Below, one piece after another: positions 48,321-64,000 of a stretch of 64,000 bases of DNA. Source of the stretch: Robiginitalea sp. (GTDB lineage: Bacteria; Bacteroidota; Bacteroidia; Flavobacteriales; Flavobacteriaceae); assembly GCA_024642005.1 (NCBI GenBank), contig JAHECA010000002.1, positions 2,756-66,755 on the forward strand, given 5' to 3'. A model generated the notes under the pieces. That model had not been told where the DNA came from. It worked only from the letters and a program-made list of their open reading frames with translations, and searched no databases. Position 1 is the first letter of the stretch. Every line of letters starts with the position of its first letter. Position numbers and translations under genes: made by a program.

Positions 48321-48329
48321 ACCCCACAA

Positions 48330-48402
48330 TTGAGGATAGATTTGACTGATTGCAACCTCTGGTCCCGCACAGGCGGGGCCGCAAAAAATGCTAAAGCAGT
48401 TG
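48330..48402 (+). ncRNA. SAM-II-like riboswitch candidate in the metK leader
   Basis: The leader holds GATTTGA-CTG-A-TTGCA (48339-48354) inside a short stem GAGG / CCTC and, further 3', GCTAAAG-CAG (48390-48399). These match the SAM-II core (GAUUURA ... UUGCA ... GCUAAA). The CTG after GATTTGA can pair with the CAG after GCTAAAG, as the SAM-II pseudoknot requires. Between them lies an extra 8-bp hairpin GGTCCCGC / GCGGGGCC. The P1 stem is short. The class assignment is by eye, without a covariance search. Confidence 0.6.
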
Positions 48403-48483
48403 GCTGTTCCCTTTACGGGAGTTAGCCATTCTACTGTCTGGCATCGCAATCATCCCAAGCCTGTCTTCCGAAAGAAAAGAGCA

Positions 48484-49740
48484 ATGCCGTACCTGTTTAC
48501 TTCAGAATCTGTCAGCGAGGGACATCCCGACAAGATAGCCGACCAGATCAGTGACGCCCTGTTGGATAATTTCCTGGCTTTCGACCCCGAAAGCAAGGTG
48601 GCCTGCGAAACCCTGGTGACCACCGGGCAGGTAATCCTGGCCGGGGAGGTGAAGAGCCATACCTATGTAGACCTGCAACAGATCGCCCGCGAGGTGATCA
48701 ACCAGATCGGGTATACCAAGGGCTCCTATCAGTTTAGCGGCGATTCCTGCGGGGTGATATCCCTTATCCACGAGCAGTCTCAGGACATCAACCAGGGCGT
48801 AGACCGCGGCAGCAAGGAATTGCAGGGGGCCGGCGACCAGGGCATGATGTTCGGGTATGCCTGCCGGGAGACCGACAATTACATGCCACTGGCCCTGGAA
48901 CTCTCGCACCGCATCCTTCACGAGTTGGCCGAGCTGAGGCGGGAGGCCCGGGATATCCCCTACCTGCGGCCCGATGCCAAGGCCCAGGTAACCGTGGAAT
49001 ACTCTGACGATCACCAGCCCCTGCGCATCGATACCGTCGTGATCTCGACCCAGCACGACCCCTTTGATGCAGACGATGCCCGCATGCTCGCCAAAATCAA
49101 GCTCGACATGCTGCAGATCCTGATGCCGCGGGTCATTGCCGGCCTGCCCGAGCGGCTGCACGAATTGTTTGACGGGAAAGTGACCTACCACATCAACCCG
49201 ACCGGGAAGTTTGTGATCGGCGGCCCGCATGGCGACACCGGCCTGACCGGTCGCAAAATCGTAGTAGATACCTATGGGGGCAAGGGCGCCCACGGGGGCG
49301 GGGCATTCAGCGGAAAGGATCCGAGCAAGGTAGATCGCAGCGCGGCCTATGCCGCCCGCCACGCCGCCAAGAACCTGGTGGCCGCCGGGGTTGCCGATGA
49401 AATTTTGCTGCAGCTGAGCTACGCCATCGGCATTGCTGAGCCGACCTCCCTCTACGTGAACACTTACGGCACAGCCAAAGTGGGCCTGAGCGACGGGGAG
49501 ATTGCAGAGCGGGTGGCCGAATTGTTCGACATGCGCCCCTTCGCGATCGAGCAGCGGCTGAAGCTGCGCCATCCGATCTACCTGGAAACGGCGGCCTACG
49601 GCCATATGGGCAAGGCGCCCCGTACCGTTAAAAAGATATTCGAATCGCCGTACAACGGGCGGGTGGAAACCGAGGTGGAGCTTTTTACCTGGGAGAAGCT
49701 CGACACCGTAGCGGCGGTTAAGTCGGCCTTCGGGCTGTAA
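48484..49740 (+). CDS. metK: S-adenosylmethionine synthetase
   Basis: 418 residues from the ATG of [24 protein letters not shown]; the in-frame ATG at 48388 lies inside the aptamer and is unlikely to be used. Signatures are [12 protein letters not shown], the substrate-site motifs, and [25 protein letters not shown] near residue 270. It makes SAM from methionine and ATP in the cytoplasm. SAM is the likely ligand of its own leader and of the two downstream S-box elements. It heads the methionine and sulfur region. Confidence 0.96.
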
Positions 49741-49812: not shown

Positions 49813-49950
49813 CGGTTATCAAGAAAGGCGGAGGGAGTAGACCCTGTGAAGCCTTAGCAACCCTTCAGCTTCCCTGAAGAAGGTGCTACATTCTAACCCG
49901 GTGCGGACCCCTGCCTGCAGGCGGTCTTCACTCCCCGGGAAAGATAACGC
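49813..49950 (+). ncRNA. SAM-I (S-box) riboswitch upstream of the metX fusion
   Basis: P1 GTTATC (49815-49820) pairs with GATAAC (49943-49948). The conserved core is present: AAAGGCGGAGGGA, ACCCTGTGAAGCC, TTAGCAACC and AAGGTGCTACATTC. P3 is the perfect stem CTTCAG / CTGAAG and P4 is closed by CCCGG / CCGGG. Just after P1 comes a short hairpin GGGC-TCT-GCCC with a T-rich tail. It should reduce expression of the metX fusion when SAM is high. Confidence 0.93.
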
Positions 49951-50044
49951 ATGGGCTCTGCCCCCTGTCCTTTCTTTTTAACTTAACTTATTGAGCCTGC
50001 GCCCCGGGAAAAAACCCCTTGTCGGCAGGCGCAACGCAGTAGTT

Positions 50045-53000
50045 ATGGAAACTTCGAACTTGCAACATATCAGGCTGGACGCCTACACTACCCTGAGCGG
50101 GTCAACCCAGCCCATTAACCTGTCGTACCAGTTGTTCGGCCGCCCCCTGCATGAGGCCCCCGTAGTGCTGGTGAACCACGCCCTTACCGGCAATTCAAAC
50201 GTGGCCGGCCCCGACGGCTGGTGGTCGTCTTTGGTGGGCCCGGGCAAATGCATAGATACCGAGACCTATACCGTGCTGTGCTTCAATGTGCCCGGCAACG
50301 GGTACGACGGCTTTATGATCGAGAATTACAAAGACTTCGTGGCCGCCGACATAGCCCGCATTTTCCTGATGGGGTTGGAAACCCTGCACATCCGCTCGCT
50401 TTTCGCCCTGATCGGCGGATCCCTGGGCGGGGGCATCGCCTGGGAAATAGCGGCATTGCGGCCCGGGCTGGCCGAGCACCTGATCCCGGTTGCTTCCGAC
50501 TGGAAATCGACCGATTGGCTCATCGCCAACTGCCAGATCCAGGAGCAGTTCCTGGTCAATTCCAAACAACCAGTGCACGATGCGCGCATGCACGCCATGC
50601 TCTGTTACCGCACACCCGAATCGTTCAAACAGCGTTTCCAGCGGAGCACGAACCAGGAGCGGCAGTTGTTCAACGTGGAGAGCTGGCTGCTCCACCACGG
50701 TGAAAAACTGCAGGAGCGTTTCCAGCTGGCCGCCTACAAGCTCACCAACCAGCTGCTGAAGACCATCGACATTACCAGGGGAGGGGAGGAGGCATTCTTT
50801 GAATTGCAGCAGAGTGACACCAACATCCACATTATCGGGGTAGACTCCGACCTGTTCTTCACCGCTTCTGAAAACAAGGAAACCTATAAGCAGCTGGCTC
50901 AGGCCAGCGGCAACGTGACCTATGGGGAGATCCATTCGGTACACGGGCACGACGCCTTCCTGATCGAATTCGAACAGATGGAGCAGCTGCTGCAACCGGT
51001 GTTCAGCCCGCCAGACCCAACCCGGGCGCTCAAGGTGCTCAAATTTGGCGGTAAATCGCTGGCCAACGGGGAAGGTATTGATCGTGTGCTCGATATCGTG
51101 ACCGGCAAGTTAGCCGCCGGCGGGCGCATCGTGCTGGTGCTTTCGGCCCGTGAAAAGGCTACCGACCAGTTGGAGGAGTTGCTGGATCTTGCCTCGGCAG
51201 GCAAAGACTACAAGACGGCTTTCGACCGGTTCGAGAAATACCAGCGGCACAGCTTTTCCCAGGTAAACCTCGGGCAGGGCTTTGTGGAACTGGCCCGTTT
51301 GTTGGAAGGGGTGCGCCTGTTGGGCGATTACAGCCCCAAGATCAAAGACCAGGTGCTCTCTTACGGGGAGCTGATCTCGGCGAACCTGGTCACCAAACTG
51401 TTGATTGGCCGCGGGGTGGATGCCCGCATGGTAGATACGCGCCCTTTGATCAAAACCGATTCCGCCTTCGGCAACGCCCAGGTGCACGAAGAGGTGTCGC
51501 GTGAAAACGTAAACCACTTTTTCGCATCGATCCCGCCCGGCACAGTGCCGGTGGTAACGGGCTTTATCGGCTCGAACCAGCTGGGAGAAACCACGACCCT
51601 GGGCCGCAACGGCAGCAATTATTCGGCCTCCCTGCTGGCCAATTTCCTGAATGCAGACGAATTGCAGAACTACACCCATGTAGACGGCATATTCACCGCC
51701 AATCCGGAACTCGTGCCCGGGGCACAACGCATCGCCCAGCTGTCGTATGGGGAGGCCAACGAGCTGGCCAATTTCGGGGCTACCATTCTGCACGCGAAGA
51801 CCATCATCCCGCTGCTGGAAAAAAATATTCCGCTGCGTATCCTGAATACCTTCGGGGGAGACGGAGAGGGGACCCTGATCAGCGCCAAGCCGAGCCGCCA
51901 CGGCATTCGTTCGCTTTCGGTGATCGAGAACGAGGCCCTGATCCACCTCGAAGGCAGGGGCCTGCTCGGAAAAGTCGGGGTCGATGCCCGCATCTTCCGG
52001 GCCCTGGGCCAGGCCGGGGTAAGCGTGGGAATTATTTCCCAGGGCTCATCCGAACGAGGTATCGGCCTGGTGGTGAAAGCCGAAATGGCCGAGCGGGCCA
52101 GAGCCGCCCTGGAAGCCGAATTTGAGGAAGATTTCCGCCGCAAAGACATCAATCGCATCCACAGTACCTCTGACGTGTCGGTGATCTCTATCGTGGGGCA
52201 AGACCTGAGTACCTTCCACAAACCTTACAATGCCCTGATCCGCAACCAGGTGGTGCCGCTGTTGTTCAACAATGCCGTGACGGGCCGGAACGTGAGCCTG
52301 GTGGTGCGCAAGGCTGACATGCTCAAGGCGCTGAATGTGATCCACGGGCAAATCTTCGGCATCAGCAAGAAGATTAACCTGGCCGTGATGGGCATCGGCA
52401 ACGTGGGGGGCACCCTGCTGGGGCAGATGCTGGAGTCGGCCGACAAGATCGAGGCGCGCAAGGGCATTCGCCTGAATGTTTTTGCCCTGGCCAATTCGCG
52501 CCAGCTGCTGCTCGACCACAAAGGCATTGGCCGAAACTGGAAGACGCGCCTGCAAAAACAGCCCGAAGGCTACCAGCTCGGCGAGCTGTTCGATTACGCC
52601 CGGGCCCACCACCTGGAAAACCTGATCATGGTCGACAATACGGCCAGCGCCGATTTTGTGGCCCATTACTTTGAATTCATCGAAAACGGCTTCGACCTGG
52701 TCTCGTCGAACAAGATCGCCAATACCCTGGGCTACGACTACTACCGACTGCTGCGCGACGAGCTGCAGAAATACCAGAAGCAATACCTGTACGAGACCAA
52801 TGTCGGGGCGGGCCTGCCGCTGATCGACACCATCAGGCTGCTGCACCTTTCGGGGGAGAACATCACCCGTATCAGGGGGGTCTTTTCCGGTTCCCTGAGT
52901 TATATTTTCAACACCTTTTCGAGTCAGGAGGTCGCCTTCTCGCAGGTTGTGCGGGAGGCCATGAACAAGGGGTTTACCGAACCCGACCCTCGCGAAGACC

Positions 53001-53455
53001 TCTCAGGCAGCGATGTGGGGCGGAAGTTGCTCATTCTGGCCCGGGAGCTCGACCTCCAGAACGAGTTTGCCGATATCCGGATACATAACCTGATCCCCGA
53101 GCCCCTGCGAAACGTCGGGCTGCCCGATTTTGAGCGCGAAATGGGGAGGCTTGATGCCGTGTATGCAGGCGTGAAGCAGGAGCAGCCTGCCGGCCAGGTA
53201 CTGCGCTACGTAGGAGAACTCTCCGGCGACTTGCAGCAAGACAAAGGGGTGCTGGAGGTAAAACTGGTATCGGTGCCCGACTCCAGCCCGCTGGGCCAGG
53301 TGAAGGGGGCCGATTCCCTCATTGAGATCTACACCGAAAGTTACGGCGAACACCCCCTGGTAATCCAGGGCGCCGGGGCCGGGGCGGCCGTTACCGCCCG
53401 GGGCGTTTTCGGGGATATTTTGCGCATTGCCGAAAAAGGCCATGCCGATTCGTAA
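50045..53455 (+). CDS. Trifunctional fusion: homoserine O-acyltransferase (MetX-like) + aspartokinase + homoserine dehydrogenase
   Basis: 1136 residues from the first ATG (METSNLQHIRL); the tracked TTG start adds 18. Residues 1-320 are a MetX-type alpha/beta hydrolase with the triad Ser126 (IGGSLGGG), Asp269 (VDSDLFF) and His302 (GHDAFL). Residues ~328-775 are a ThrA-like aspartokinase with ACT domains (KVLKFGGKSLA, TLGRNGSNYSAS, YTHVDGIFTANPELV). Residues ~777-1136 are homoserine dehydrogenase (AVMGIGNVGGTL, SSNKIANTL, NVGAGLPLIDTIRLL). The protein would phosphorylate aspartate, reduce the semialdehyde to homoserine and acylate it for methionine, leaving only semialdehyde formation to a separate enzyme. 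It is under a SAM-I riboswitch and followed by metZ. Confidence 0.93.
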   Translation: METSNLQHIRLDAYTTLSGSTQPINLSYQLFGRPLHEAPVVLVNHALTGNSNVAGPDGWWSSLVGPGKCIDTETYTVLCFNVPGNGYDGFMIENYKDFVAADIARIFLMGLETLHIRSLFALIGGSLGGGIAWEIAALRPGLAEHLIPVASDWKSTDWLIANCQIQEQFLVNSKQPVHDARMHAMLCYRTPESFKQRFQRSTNQERQLFNVESWLLHHGEKLQERFQLAAYKLTNQLLKTIDITRGGEEAFFELQQSDTNIHIIGVDSDLFFTASENKETYKQLAQASGNVTYGEIHSVHGHDAFLIEFEQMEQLLQPVFSPPDPTRALKVLKFGGKSLANGEGIDRVLDIVTGKLAAGGRIVLVLSAREKATDQLEELLDLASAGKDYKTAFDRFEKYQRHSFSQVNLGQGFVELARLLEGVRLLGDYSPKIKDQVLSYGELISANLVTKLLIGRGVDARMVDTRPLIKTDSAFGNAQVHEEVSRENVNHFFASIPPGTVPVVTGFIGSNQLGETTTLGRNGSNYSASLLANFLNADELQNYTHVDGIFTANPELVPGAQRIAQLSYGEANELANFGATILHAKTIIPLLEKNIPLRILNTFGGDGEGTLISAKPSRHGIRSLSVIENEALIHLEGRGLLGKVGVDARIFRALGQAGVSVGIISQGSSERGIGLVVKAEMAERARAALEAEFEEDFRRKDINRIHSTSDVSVISIVGQDLSTFHKPYNALIRNQVVPLLFNNAVTGRNVSLVVRKADMLKALNVIHGQIFGISKKINLAVMGIGNVGGTLLGQMLESADKIEARKGIRLNVFALANSRQLLLDHKGIGRNWKTRLQKQPEGYQLGELFDYARAHHLENLIMVDNTASADFVAHYFEFIENGFDLVSSNKIANTLGYDYYRLLRDELQKYQKQYLYETNVGAGLPLIDTIRLLHLSGENITRIRGVFSGSLSYIFNTFSSQEVAFSQVVREAMNKGFTEPDPREDLSGSDVGRKLLILARELDLQNEFADIRIHNLIPEPLRNVGLPDFEREMGRLDAVYAGVKQEQPAGQVLRYVGELSGDLQQDKGVLEVKLVSVPDSSPLGQVKGADSLIEIYTESYGEHPLVIQGAGAGAAVTARGVFGDILRIAEKGHADS

Positions 53456-53471: not shown

Positions 53472-54650
53472 ATGAAAAAACTGCAACCAGAAACCGAGGC
53501 CATCCGCACCCAGATCCCGCGGAGCGAATTCCAGGAACACTCAGCCCCTCTTTACCTGAGTTCCAGCTTTGTCTTCGACGACGCCGAAGACATGCGGGCC
53601 TCCTTTGCCGAAGAGAAAGACCGCATCATCTATTCGCGCTACTCGAACCCCAATACCTCCGAATGGATCGAGAAGGTGTGCAAGATGGAAGGGGCCGAGG
53701 CCGGCTTTGCCTTTGCCTCCGGCATGGCGGCCGTCTTTTCGACCCTGGCCGCCCTGCTCGACAGCGGCGACCATATTATCTCGTCACGCTCGGTCTTTGG
53801 TTCTACCTCCACCCTGTTTGCCAACATTTTTCCGAAGTGGCAAATCAGCCATTCCTATTTCCGGCACGACCGGCTGCAAGACATCGAGGGGCTTATCCGG
53901 CCCACTACGCGTCTGATCTACGCCGAATCGCCCACCAACCCGGGGGTCGACGTGCTCGACCTTGAGGCCCTGGGACGCCTGGCCAAAAAGCACGGCCTGC
54001 TGCTGGTGGTAGACAACTGCTTCGCTACCCCTTACCTGCAGCAGCCCCTGCGCTTCGGGGCCGACCTGGTAATCCATTCGGGCACCAAGCTCATGGACGG
54101 GCAGGGCCGCGTTTTGGCTGGCATTACCGTGGGGAGTGCCGCCCTGATCGATAAGATATACCGCTTTGCACGCATTACCGGTCCGGCGCTCTCACCCTTC
54201 AATGCCTGGCTCCTCTCCAAGAGTATGGAAACCCTGGCCGTAAGGGTAGACCGGCATTGCGAGAACGCCCTCAAGGTGGCCGAATTTTTGGAAGGTCACC
54301 CAAAGGTTAACTGGGTCAAATACCCTTTCCTGAAATCGCACCCTCAGGTCGAACTGGCCCGCAAGCAGATGAAGGCGGGCGGCTGTGTGGTGGCCTTTGA
54401 AGTGCAGGGAGGCGTAGATGGGGGGCGCACCTTTTTCGACGGCATAGGCCTGCTGTCCCTCTCGGCCAACCTGGGCGACACCCGCAGCATCGTCACGCAT
54501 CCGGCCTCGACCACCCACAGCAAACTAACCCCGGAAGAGCGCCTGGAAAGCGGCATTACAGACGGTATGGTCCGCATTTCTGTGGGCCTGGAGCACCCCG
54601 ACGACATCTGCGCCGACCTGGCCCGTGCTTTGGATGGGGTTGGGGCCTGA
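53472..54650 (+). CDS. metZ: O-acylhomoserine sulfhydrylase (MetZ-type)
   Basis: 392 residues from the ATG of MKKLQPETEAIRTQ; the tracked start is a TTG inside the upstream gene. The Cys/Met-metabolism PLP fold shows YSRYSNPNTSEWIEKVCKMEGAE, FASGMAAVFSTLAALL, VVDNCFATPYLQQPL and the PLP lysine in VIHSGTKLMDGQG. It should join sulfide to O-acylhomoserine to give homocysteine directly. Acetyl- or succinyl-preference cannot be decided by eye. It is 16 bp from the metX fusion, whose product is its substrate. Confidence 0.93.
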   Translation: MKKLQPETEAIRTQIPRSEFQEHSAPLYLSSSFVFDDAEDMRASFAEEKDRIIYSRYSNPNTSEWIEKVCKMEGAEAGFAFASGMAAVFSTLAALLDSGDHIISSRSVFGSTSTLFANIFPKWQISHSYFRHDRLQDIEGLIRPTTRLIYAESPTNPGVDVLDLEALGRLAKKHGLLLVVDNCFATPYLQQPLRFGADLVIHSGTKLMDGQGRVLAGITVGSAALIDKIYRFARITGPALSPFNAWLLSKSMETLAVRVDRHCENALKVAEFLEGHPKVNWVKYPFLKSHPQVELARKQMKAGGCVVAFEVQGGVDGGRTFFDGIGLLSLSANLGDTRSIVTHPASTTHSKLTPEERLESGITDGMVRISVGLEHPDDICADLARALDGVGA

Positions 54651-54679: not shown

Positions 54680-55087
54680 ATGCTTTCCAAAAAGACCAAA
54701 TACGGGCTCAAGGCGCTCACCTACCTGGCTCGTCGCAAAGACCGCAGCCCCGTTCAGATTGCGGAGATTGCCCGGCACGAAAACATCTCTCAGAAGTTCC
54801 TGGAGAGCATATTGCTGACCCTTCGCAAGAACGGCTACCTGGGTTCCCGAAAAGGGAAGGGCGGCGGGTATTACCTGATCAAGGACCCGGCTGAAATCCC
54901 CATGACCGGGGTTATGCGCGTGTTGGAAGGCCCCATTGCCATGGTGCCCTGCGTGAGCCTCAATTTTTACGAAACCTGCGATGACTGCCCCGATGAAGCG
55001 ACCTGCTCGGTGCACAAGCTCATGCTGCAAGTCCGCGACAGCGCCCTGGAGGTGTACCGCAACAACTCCCTGGCCGACATTATCTAA
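54680..55087 (+). CDS. Rrf2-family transcriptional regulator
   Basis: 135 residues. A winged helix-turn-helix fills the N-terminal half (TKYGLKALTYLARRK, AEIARHENISQKFLESILLTLRKNGYL) with the wing GSRKGKGGGYYLIKDP. The C-terminal part holds four cysteines in PCVSLNFYETCDDCPDEATCSVH, a spacing like IscR/CymR/NsrR relatives, so an Fe-S or redox sensor is possible. It sits between metZ and the sulfur reductases and is the obvious candidate to bind the repeated motifs at 55146, 55230 and 55911. That link is inference. Confidence 0.92.
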   Translation: MLSKKTKYGLKALTYLARRKDRSPVQIAEIARHENISQKFLESILLTLRKNGYLGSRKGKGGGYYLIKDPAEIPMTGVMRVLEGPIAMVPCVSLNFYETCDDCPDEATCSVHKLMLQVRDSALEVYRNNSLADII

Positions 55088-60446: not shown

Positions 60447-60772
60447 CCCGGGGCAGGGGGCCAAAAAAGCCCATGACCGCTTGCTTTTGAGCGGGGCTTG
60501 CCGTTTCTTTGCGGCAGTTCATTGCCACCCTGTCGAGTTATCAGGAAAGGTGGAGGGAATAGACCCGGTGAAACCTTAGCAACCCTTCGACCCCAGAGGC
60601 CCGGAGAAGGTGCTACATTCTAGCCTGCGGTTCCCAGCCACGCCGGGAAGACCCGCACGGACAGATAACGATCCCGCAAGGGTTCTGCCCAAAAAAAGTC
60701 CCATTCCTGTTCTACCTGCCTGTCAGCCCCTGAGGCCTGAAGGCTGGACGGCACTGGCAAAAATGGAATGCG
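60447..60772. other. Long leader region of the metH genes
   Basis: 326 bp without a plausible gene. It contains an imperfect CCGC/GCGG hairpin, a weak -7-like TTTCTTTG at 60503-60510 and the SAM-I aptamer. Then come about 100 bp of leader with a GGGTTCTGCCC hairpin before the ATG. Confidence 0.5.
60534..60670 (+). ncRNA. SAM-I (S-box) riboswitch upstream of split metH
   Basis: P1 GTTATC (60536-60541) pairs with GATAAC (60663-60668). The core elements AAAGGTGGAGGGA, ACCCGGTGAAACC, TTAGCAACC and AAGGTGCTACATTC match the first copy almost base for base. P4 is closed by TGCGG / CCGCA. After P1, CCC-GCAA-GGG and GGGT-TCT-GCCC compete for the same GGG. It should repress methionine synthase at high SAM. 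Confidence 0.93.
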
Positions 60773-61786
60773 ATGCCCGATTTGAATACCATACTGCGAG
60801 AACGTATCCTGGTCCTTGACGGGGCCATGGGCACCATGCTGCAGCGCCATAAGTTCGGGGAGGCCGATTTCCGGGGCGAACGCTTCCGAGACTGGCCCCA
60901 ACCCCTGCAGGGGAACAACGACCTGCTCTCGCTTACCCAGCCCGAAGCCGTGGCCGGGGTGCATCGCCTGTACCTCGAGGCCGGGGCAGATATCGTCTCG
61001 ACCAATACCTTTTCGTCAACAGCCGTGGGGATGGCCGATTACGGTATGGAATCGCTGGTGGGAGACCTCAACAGGGCGGCGGCCCGCCTGGCCCGGCGCG
61101 AAGCCGATGCCATGACAGCCCGCACCCCGGACAAACCCCGTTTTGTAGCGGGAAGTATCGGCCCTACCAACAAGACCGCCAGCATGTCGCCCGACGTGAA
61201 CGACCCCGGGTACCGGGCCATTTCCTTTGAAGCCCTGAAGGCCGACTACCGCGAGCAGGTAGATGCCCTGCTCGAAGGAGGGGTCGACCTGTTGCTGGTA
61301 GAAACGGTTTTCGATACCCTCAACGCCAAGGCAGCCCTGTTTGCCATTGAAGAAGCCAAAGAGGCCCGGGGCCTCGATACCCCGGTGATGGTGAGCGGCA
61401 CCATTACCGATGCTTCGGGACGCACCCTCTCCGGGCAGACTGCCGAGGCCTTCCTGATTTCGATTTCACACGCGACCTTGCTCTCAGTCGGGCTCAACTG
61501 TGCCCTGGGGGCCAGCCAGCTTGTCCCGTACCTCGAAGTTTTGGCATCCCGGGCCGACACAGCCATATCTGCTCACCCGAACGCCGGCCTGCCCAATGCC
61601 TTCGGCGCCTACGACCAGGGCCCTGCACAGATGGCCGGGCAGATCCGCGAATACCTGGAAAAGGGCCTGGTGAACATCGTCGGGGGTTGTTGCGGGACTA
61701 CGCCAGACCACATCAAAGCCATAGCCGAGCTTGTCAAAGAGTTCGAGCCCCGGGCGATTCCAAATTCCAAAAAGGTTAAGGGATGA
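60773..61786 (+). CDS. metH: Methionine synthase, homocysteine-binding module (split MetH, N part)
   Basis: 337 residues. This is the homocysteine S-methyltransferase barrel: [18 protein letters not shown] at the N-terminus and the three zinc-ligand cysteines in [10 protein letters not shown] and [12 protein letters not shown]. In most bacteria it is fused to the folate, cobalamin and activation domains; here these are in the next gene. The overlap ATGA couples the two, so they are likely made in equal amounts. Methylation of homocysteine with methyltetrahydrofolate is the last step of the pathway laid out in this region. Confidence 0.93.
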
Positions 61787-64000
61787 CACAACGCGCCTCC
61801 AGGTATTTGAAGTTGGCGGGCCTCGAGCCCCTTGTGGTTACCCCTGAAAGCAATTTCATCAACGTGGGGGAACGCACCAACGTGGCCGGGTCGCGCCTGT
61901 TTTTGCGTTTGGTCAAGGAAGGTAATTTCGAGGAGGCCCTCGAAATTGCCCGCAACCAGGTGGAGGGCGGGGCCCAGATTTTGGATGTAAACATGGACGA
62001 CGGCCTGATTGAAGGCAAACAGGCTATGGTTACCTTCCTGAACTTGCTCATGGCCGAGCCCGACATCGCCCGGGTGCCCATCATGATCGACAGTTCCAAA
62101 TGGGAAATCATCGAGGCGGGGCTGCAGGTGGTACAGGGCAAGTGTGTGGTCAATTCCATCAGCCTGAAGGAAGGGGAAGCCGTCTTTCTTGAGCAGGCCA
62201 AAAAAATAAGGCGCTACGGGGCGGCGGTTATTGTGATGGCTTTCGACGAAGCCGGGCAGGCCGACACCTACGAGCGGCGCATTGCAATTGCCCAACGCTC
62301 ATACCGCCTGCTTACCGAAAAGGTGGCGTTCCCGCCAGAAGACATCATTTTTGACCTGAATATCTTCCCGGTGGCCACCGGGATGGAGGAACACCGCCGC
62401 AACGCGGTAGATTTCATAGAAGCCACCCGCTGGGTGCGGGATAACCTCCCCTATTGCAGCGTAAGCGGGGGGGTGAGCAACGTTTCCTTCAGCTTCCGCG
62501 GCAACAATACCGTGCGGGAGGCCATGCACAGCGCCTTCCTGTACCACGCCATCAAAGCCGGCATGAATATGGGGATCGTGAACCCGGCCATGCTGGAGGT
62601 TTACGACGACATCCCCGAGCCCCTGCTCACCTATGTGGAAGACGTGTTGCTCGACCGGAAGGCCGACGCCACGGAGCGGTTACTGGAGTACGCCGAAACC
62701 GTACAGGGCAAGCAGAAAGAGCGCAGCGCCGACCTGAGCTGGCGCGAAGAACCCCTGCAAGACCGGATTACCCGGGCCCTGGTAAAGGGGATAGACCAGT
62801 ATATCGAGCAAGATGTGGAAGAGGCGCGTCAGGCGGCGGCCCAGCCCATCGAAGTGATCGAAGGCGCCCTGATGACCGGCATGAACGTGGTGGGCGACCT
62901 ATTCGGCAGCGGGAAGATGTTTTTGCCACAGGTGGTAAAATCGGCCCGGGTCATGAAGAAGGCCGTAGCCTACCTGACCCCGTATATCGAAGAGGCCAAC
63001 GCCATCTCGGGGGGCGGGCATGCAGCGGGCAGGGTACTGCTGGCCACGGTTAAGGGTGATGTGCACGACATCGGCAAAAACATCGTGAGCGTGGTGCTGG
63101 CCTGCAATAACTACCACATCGTGGATCTGGGGGTCATGGTTCCCCCGGAGCGTATCCTGGAAAAAGCCCGGGAAGAACGGGTAGACATCATAGGCCTCAG
63201 CGGCCTGATTACCCCTTCCCTCGACGAAATGGTGCACCTGGCCAAAGAAATGCAGCGGCAACAGTTTACCCTGCCCCTGCTCATTGGTGGGGCCACAACC
63301 AGCAAGGCGCATACGGCCGTAAAGATCGACCCGGAGTACGCTTCGGCTGTAGTATACGTGCCCGATGCGAGCCGGGCCGTAACCGTGGTGGGCGACCTGT
63401 TGCAGGCCGAGAGGTCCGAAGGCTACAAGCGGGCCCTTAAGGAGGAGTACAATACCTTCCGCAGCAAATTCCGGCAGCGGGCGCGCGCCAAAGACTACCT
63501 GAGCCTGGCCGAGGCCCGGGCCAATAAACTGCGCCTCGACTGGAAGCCTGAAGCTATACCCGTTCCCCGCCAGCTGGGGGTACAGGTGCTCGAGACACTC
63601 GACCTGAGGAAACTGGAACCCCTGATCGACTGGACCCCCTTTTTCCGCTCCTGGGACCTGCACGGCAAATTCCCGGGTATTTTGGAAGATGAGGTGGTGG
63701 GGGCACAAGCCACCCAATTGCACAAAGATGCCCGCGAGATGCTGCGGCAGCTGATCCGCGACCATTCCCTGACGGCCAGGGCAGTGTTCGGCTTGTTTCC
63801 GGCCAACACGGTAGGAGACGACGATATTGAAATCCGCCGACCGGAGGGTGCCACGGCACGCTTTCTGACACTGCGCCAGCAGGGCGACAAGCGGGATGGC
63901 GTGCCCAACCTGGCCCTGGCCGACTTCATTGCCCCGGCCGAAACCGGCATACAGGATTATATGGGCTGCTTTTGCGTTTCTGCGGGCTTCGGGGCAAAAG
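61783..64000 (+). CDS. metH: Methionine synthase, folate/B12/activation modules (split MetH, C part), cut by window end
   Basis: Not in the ORF track because it runs off the window; about 739 codons are present from the ATG of [14 protein letters not shown]. The pterin-binding domain comes first ([46 protein letters not shown]). A cap domain follows. The cobalamin domain has the histidine ligand in [17 protein letters not shown] plus LSGLITPSL and [10 protein letters not shown]. The SAM-dependent activation domain begins in the last ~130 residues and is incomplete at the window end. Start overlaps the preceding stop by 4 bp. Confidence 0.95.

Follow-up and report, generated by a model that had tools for sequence, protein, structure and literature searches.

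The principal finding is a gene of the marine bacterium Robiginitalea in which a MetX-like homoserine O-acyltransferase, an aspartokinase (AK) fold, a regulatory ACT region and a homoserine dehydrogenase (HSD) are joined in one reading frame. The product is probably a methionine-branch, SAM-controlled HSD–MetX enzyme with two consecutive steps on one chain, in which homoserine would be captured for methionine. What can be read from the sequence is the fusion itself, the intact MetX and HSD residues, the SAM-I riboswitch, a thrABC operon elsewhere in the genome, an altered AK site and the loss of the second ACT motif. The window referred to throughout is the whole 64,000-nucleotide stretch of DNA that was analysed; the coordinates of its relevant features are collected in Table 1.

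The gene is an uninterrupted frame of 1136 codons plus a stop (50045–53455, forward strand). An alternative in-frame TTG start lies at 49991, but the ATG at 50045 is favoured because of the lengths of the proteins in relatives. The order on the chain is MetX-like acyltransferase, AK, two ACT motifs and HSD, with the SAM-I riboswitch 5' of the gene. Pfam matches above the gathering cut-offs cover Abhydrolase_1 (residues 39–151), AA_kinase (330–601), ACT_9 (633–693), NAD_binding_3 (783–917) and Homoserine_dh (925–1126), which bears out the single three-domain frame of 1136 codons proposed in an earlier, sequence-only reading of this DNA. The ThrA-type AK-HSD I model NF006959 also matches (758.7 bits; cut-off 726). 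Homologues in the PDB are 2b61 and 2pl5 for the homoserine acetyltransferase part (HTA), 3c1m and 2j0w for AK and 1ebf for HSD. The AlphaFold2 model built from the homologue alignment (mean pLDDT 88, pTM 0.66) was matched by Foldseek to 3c1m and 2j0w (AK), 1ebf (HSD) and 5w8o and 2b61 (MetX).

The same single frame is kept in dozens of relatives at 51–82% identity, with dN/dS of the domains at approximately 0.07–0.15 (rough values, dS being near saturation in many pairs). This conservation, the low dN/dS and the confident model together argue that the frame is not a chance one. Separate, adjacent metX and AK-HSD genes in several relatives would be in keeping with an annotation or assembly artefact, in which a sequencing error had joined metX to thrA. 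However, many assemblies made independently, NCBI genome records (L014–L022) among them, show the same frame, which rules out such a frameshift, and the domains flanking the junction are under purifying selection on both sides; the probability of an artefact is negligible.

Table 1. Features of the fusion gene and its immediate neighbours (positions in the window).
Feature	Position	Strand	Basis
SAM-II riboswitch (48326–48404) and metK, upstream neighbour	48326–49740	+	RF01726, 57.8 bits; TIGR01034, 500.5 bits
SAM-I (S-box) riboswitch aptamer	49813–49950	+	Rfam RF00162, 70.3 bits (gathering cut-off 44.4)
Putative expression platform: short GGGC-loop-GCCC element, pyrimidine-rich tail	49951–50044	+	RNA folding; inferred
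MetX-like homoserine O-acyltransferase domain, residues 1–321	50045–51007	+	Pfam, NCBIfam, PDB alignment, fold match to 5w8o/2b61
MetX triad: S126; D269; H302	50420–50422; 50849–50851; 50948–50950	+	Alignment to 2b61
Short linker, residues 322–327, low confidence (pLDDT < 50 at 324–326)	51008–51025	+	AlphaFold2
Aspartokinase-fold domain, residues 328–625, non-canonical catalytic site	51026–51919	+	Pfam, residue alignment
AK replacements: N525 (LysC D202), H545 (D222), E555 (R232), T580 (K257)			
AK aspartate pocket kept: A368, T373, E442, F507, R521, S524; K333 also kept			
Regulatory ACT region, residues 626–770	51920–52354	+	Pfam, motif comparison
Homoserine dehydrogenase domain, residues 771–1136, and stop	52355–53455	+	Pfam, residue alignment
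HSD catalytic residues K890, E979, D985, D990, K994 (yeast K117, E208, D214, D219, K223)			
MetZ-like O-acyl-homoserine sulfhydrylase, next operon gene	53472–54650	+	Best NCBIfam match O-succinylhomoserine sulfhydrylase, 497 bits (below cut-off 522)

The MetX domain has an α/β-hydrolase fold with a Ser–Asp–His triad, as judged by alignment and by the fold matches to 5w8o and 2b61. The triad residues align with the catalytic residues of Haemophilus influenzae homoserine acetyltransferase (2b61) and are invariant in 66 of 66 homologues, in agreement with the intact triad noted from the sequence earlier. In addition to the fold and the catalytic Ser, Asp and His, the domain shares the HD motif and the ARMxxMLxYRT segment with 2b61 and the Leptospira enzyme (2pl5). 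It differs from these enzymes in being shorter and fused to AK-HSD, and it lacks the insertion loop that follows NVxG in 2b61. The curated models align over residues 19–321 but with scores below their cut-offs, at 176.6 bits for TIGR01392 (cut-off 500) and 176.7 bits for NF001209 (cut-off 331). The TIGR01392 cut-off was reached by no match in 60 relatives or in the control genomes, which suggests that it is narrow. Given the scores below the curated cut-offs, the acyl donor could be either acetyl-CoA or succinyl-CoA.

In the HSD domain, the residues that match the yeast catalytic set are invariant in all 84 sequences compared, which together with the Homoserine_dh match upholds the assignment of a homoserine dehydrogenase. 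The two ACT motifs have fared differently when compared with the thrABC paralogue. The first is kept (ISQGSSE at residues 664–670; ISQxSSE in most relatives), whereas the QGSSE motif of the second is replaced by LLFNNAV (residues 739–745). Every ThrA paralogue has the QG(A/S)SE motif in ACT2, and no MetX-linked protein does. In the Arabidopsis enzyme, the counterpart of the ACT2 Gln mediates threonine inhibition of HSD, and through this change the HSD of the fusion may be insensitive to threonine.

A SAM-I switch had been proposed upstream of the gene, and the Rfam match confirms it. SAM-I is likewise found 5' of metX or the met operon in most of the relatives scanned, including those in which the genes are split. 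The leader folds far better than its shuffled counterparts (z = −4.4 by RNA folding), with a predicted alternative pairing between the downstream element and the 5' strand of the SAM-I aptamer. Similar platform elements are discernible by eye in the Robiginitalea leaders L014, L022, L055 and L057, and no standard terminator was scored in the leader. SAM would be expected to switch the fusion gene off. The SAM-II and SAM-I switches stand side by side in the window; the SAM-II element overlaps the listed metK start (48388), and the true start therefore probably lies further downstream.

The methionine context suggested by the sequence-only reading is confirmed, with metK upstream and metZ and sulfate-assimilation genes downstream. 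The metZ frame could start at a TTG (53427), although relatives suggest the ATG at 53472. A gene for an Rrf2-family regulator (54680–55087, forward strand) lies between metZ and the sulfate-assimilation genes, and the window also holds a PAPS-reductase-family gene, a sulfite/nitrite reductase and sirohaem genes. A second SAM-I riboswitch (60535–60671) stands 5' of metH, which is apparently split into two overlapping frames on the forward strand, a homocysteine-methyltransferase part (60773–61786) and the remainder (61783–63999). At L016–L021 and other loci, a second sulfhydrylase (approximately 424–430 residues, approximately 35% identical to MetZ) lies upstream of metX; it is present in most non-Robiginitalea relatives, in the place occupied by metK in Robiginitalea.

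Elsewhere in the host genome there is a thrA-thrB-thrC operon (contig C77) and a lysC-like gene (contig C62), as had been predicted when a further aspartokinase was expected outside the window. The lysC-like protein (L081:3890–5137) is short, at 416 residues, with Ser at the Lys257 position and Asp202 kept. A genome-wide look for a competing metX found neither a second metX nor any metA in the Robiginitalea host, leaving the fusion as the only MetX found.

On this basis, the HSD part would convert aspartate semialdehyde to homoserine and the MetX part of the same chain would acylate it, with expression governed by the SAM-I riboswitch within the methionine operon and the separate thrABC operon serving threonine. 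Because the gene is SAM-I controlled and lies in a methionine operon, methionine synthesis probably takes up the homoserine that this enzyme makes; a flux dedicated to methionine is what we infer. The original proposal placed both the first and the committed methionine step on one chain. This stands for HSD and MetX, which are consecutive; it does not stand for AK and HSD, since the chain does not carry the aspartate-semialdehyde dehydrogenase step between them.

The MetX-AK-HSD fusion is common in the family and not peculiar to the window genome. The closest named relatives are from Robiginitalea and other Flavobacteriaceae (71–82% identity), and the fused form, counted by open-frame length, is present in 21 of 36 sampled genomes of the same family. 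A survey of relatives also placed it in some further families within the order. When 297 genomes drawn evenly across the phylum were searched by BLAST, which would miss distant MetX, the matches listed included single ones spanning MetX and AK-HSD only in the window's own family. We found no description of a MetX-AK-HSD fusion in the open-access literature, where an earlier description may nevertheless exist, and the papers on AK-HSD fusions that were consulted make no mention of MetX.

Other architectures occur at the metX locus. MetX and AK-ACT-HSD are separate and adjacent at, for example, L030, L036–L041, L065, L068 and L069. MetX lies beside HSD alone at L063, L064, L072, L074 and L075, and beside an ACT-HSD of approximately 513 residues, with the kinase missing and ACT retained, at L076 and L077. 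At L066, L067, L070 and L073 no HSD was found within the stretch read, which is short for L066. In a quick HSD tree with modest supports, the HSDs of L076/L077 and of L064/L074 fall within the AK-HSD clade, and the kinase has therefore probably been lost at least twice; the L072 HSD clusters with the ThrA paralogues in this tree. The kinase-less metX loci still adjoin HSD, and some of them nest in the AK-HSD tree, which suggests that the coupling of HSD to MetX is the constant part. The covalent link itself is not essential, since MetX and AK-HSD are encoded separately in several lineages, and in some no HSD accompanies MetX within the stretch read.

Two further fusions were found. In genome G048, at the same locus as L007, a distant MetX (30% identity) is fused to AK-ACT-HSD (L042, 1904–5293). 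Its MetX groups with the unfused L005 in a distant clade (support 100/100), and the fusion therefore looks independent; its AK has Asn at both the D202 and the K257 positions. In G059, a 747-residue MetX-HSD fusion without a kinase lies behind a SAM-I element (L043, 4103–6343, reverse strand). The same assembly holds an 1132-residue fusion on another contig, and contamination is possible.

The AK residues, numbered as in E. coli LysC, were compared across 52 MetX-linked AK domains and 21 ThrA paralogues. The kinase had earlier been taken for a working ThrA-like enzyme; this finds no support in that form, the catalytic Asp and Lys being replaced in every MetX-linked domain examined. D202 is Asn and K257 is Thr, Asn, Ser, Glu or Tyr in 52 of 52, such that neither residue of the ThrA-type Asp202/Lys257 network is retained in any (0/52). 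D222 is His or Asn in 50 of the 52, and nearly all have an acidic or small residue at the R232 position. By comparison, D202, D222 and K257 are retained by 21 of 21 ThrA paralogues. Canonical AKs have 38 near-invariant positions, five of which are lost in the MetX-linked set, including D202, D222 and V258. The changes fall among the catalytic and ATP-site residues (list from PMC3195717), whereas the aspartate contacts (A40, T45, E119, F184, R198 and S201; list from PMC5481828) are kept, with Tyr at F184 in 2 of 52. D162 of NAGK, a key catalytic residue that positions two catalytic lysines (PMC2851564), aligns with LysC D202, although the alignment is weak. A new Arg, R369 (LysC position 41), is invariant in the MetX-linked domains, and residue 337, near the site, is Lys or Arg in most. 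The median dN/dS is 0.15 for AK and 0.14 for HSD (both rough, with dS near saturation in many pairs); this similarity indicates that the AK domain is maintained under purifying selection and rules out a decaying one. Judged by its residues, the domain belongs to the kinase family and is conserved, yet it departs from the canonical form; with both the catalytic Asp and the catalytic Lys of the fold replaced, its AK activity is putative.

Two small draft genomes, G044 and G057, bear on this activity. Their MetX-linked AK-HSD (AK residues N202, N222, T232 and N257) contains the only AK found; LysC, ThrA and DapA were not found, an absence that in draft genomes is not proof. Both keep intact asd, thrB, thrC, HSD and MetX. 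Each of the other checked genomes with a MetX-linked AK has at least one further AK, and G353 and G354, which belong to the genus of G044 and G057, keep a LysC-type AK and DapA-family matches. The pattern is as if the lysine branch alone had been lost, and this minority lineage with a sole AK argues that the MetX-linked AK domain works there.

The window protein shares the AK-ACT-ACT-HSD order and the HSD catalytic residues with E. coli ThrA, but has the extra N-terminal MetX, the replaced AK catalytic Asp and Lys and the lost ACT2 Gln motif, and its gene is SAM-I controlled in a met operon rather than in thrABC. E. coli MetL (AK-HSD II), another AK-HSD on the methionine side, likewise shares its operon with the gene for an enzyme that uses O-acylhomoserine, metB in E. 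coli and metZ in the window. The ACT ligand motifs are degenerate in MetL as in ACT2 of the window protein, and both lack Lys257; MetL carries Pro there, so that this residue is not strictly required in an AK. However, MetL keeps Asp202, Asp222 and Arg232 and has no MetX domain, and the window protein scores below the NF007003 cut-off (517.9 against 582).

A protein with all three activities, in which AK (as an ordinary kinase of the ThrA type), HSD and MetX each act by canonical mechanisms, would account for the NF006959 score, the intact K333 and aspartate-binding residues, and the finding of no other AK in G044 and G057 despite their asd, thrB and thrC. It is nevertheless unlikely in view of the losses at Asp202, Lys257 and Asp222 and of the role of the aligned NAGK residue. 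A better candidate, though one to which we give somewhat less than even weight, is a dead AK (a pseudokinase) that acts as a scaffold or aspartate sensor linking MetX to the HSD dimer in a bifunctional protein. This would explain the selective loss of phosphoryl-transfer and ATP residues beside invariant aspartate contacts, the two other AKs in the host genome, the entire absence of the kinase domain from several relatives and a dN/dS that speaks for retention rather than decay. There is a parallel in E. coli ArgA, an N-acetylglutamate synthase in which a kinase-fold domain fused to the enzyme is described as inactive (PMC555942); the enzyme and pathway differ, and inactivity of the kinase domain in the fusion is putative.

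The simple pseudokinase was initially favoured, but is weakened by G044 and G057, which retain asd, thrB and thrC with no other AK found. DapA is also missing from these two genomes, whereas their sisters keep LysC and DapA-family genes, and the new R369 and the mostly basic residue 337 suggest rewiring. The MetX-linked AKs may tentatively be viewed as a working clade without the catalytic Asp (LysC D202, NAGK D162) and Lys (K257), with a rewired site comprising R369, the mostly basic residue 337 and Asn525; the methionine enzyme would then be truly trifunctional and its kinase mechanism unusual. Overall, a working kinase, in most such cases by way of a rewired and possibly weak site, appears somewhat more likely than a dead aspartate-binding scaffold.

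The chain joins the last step shared by threonine and methionine to the first methionine-only step, with HSD and MetX covalently linked on the methionine side of the branch point. Dedication to methionine is not universal, since in G044 and G057 the AK-HSD must also feed threonine. The MetX-HSD fusion has apparently arisen three times within one bacterial order, and the automatic name 'bifunctional aspartate kinase/homoserine dehydrogenase I' may, within this order, cover proteins that are not ordinary aspartokinases. With the aspartate pocket intact, the phosphoryl-transfer residues replaced in all members and two genomes apparently dependent on the domain, either the 'essential' catalytic Asp would be dispensable or the domain would be an aspartate-binding pseudokinase.
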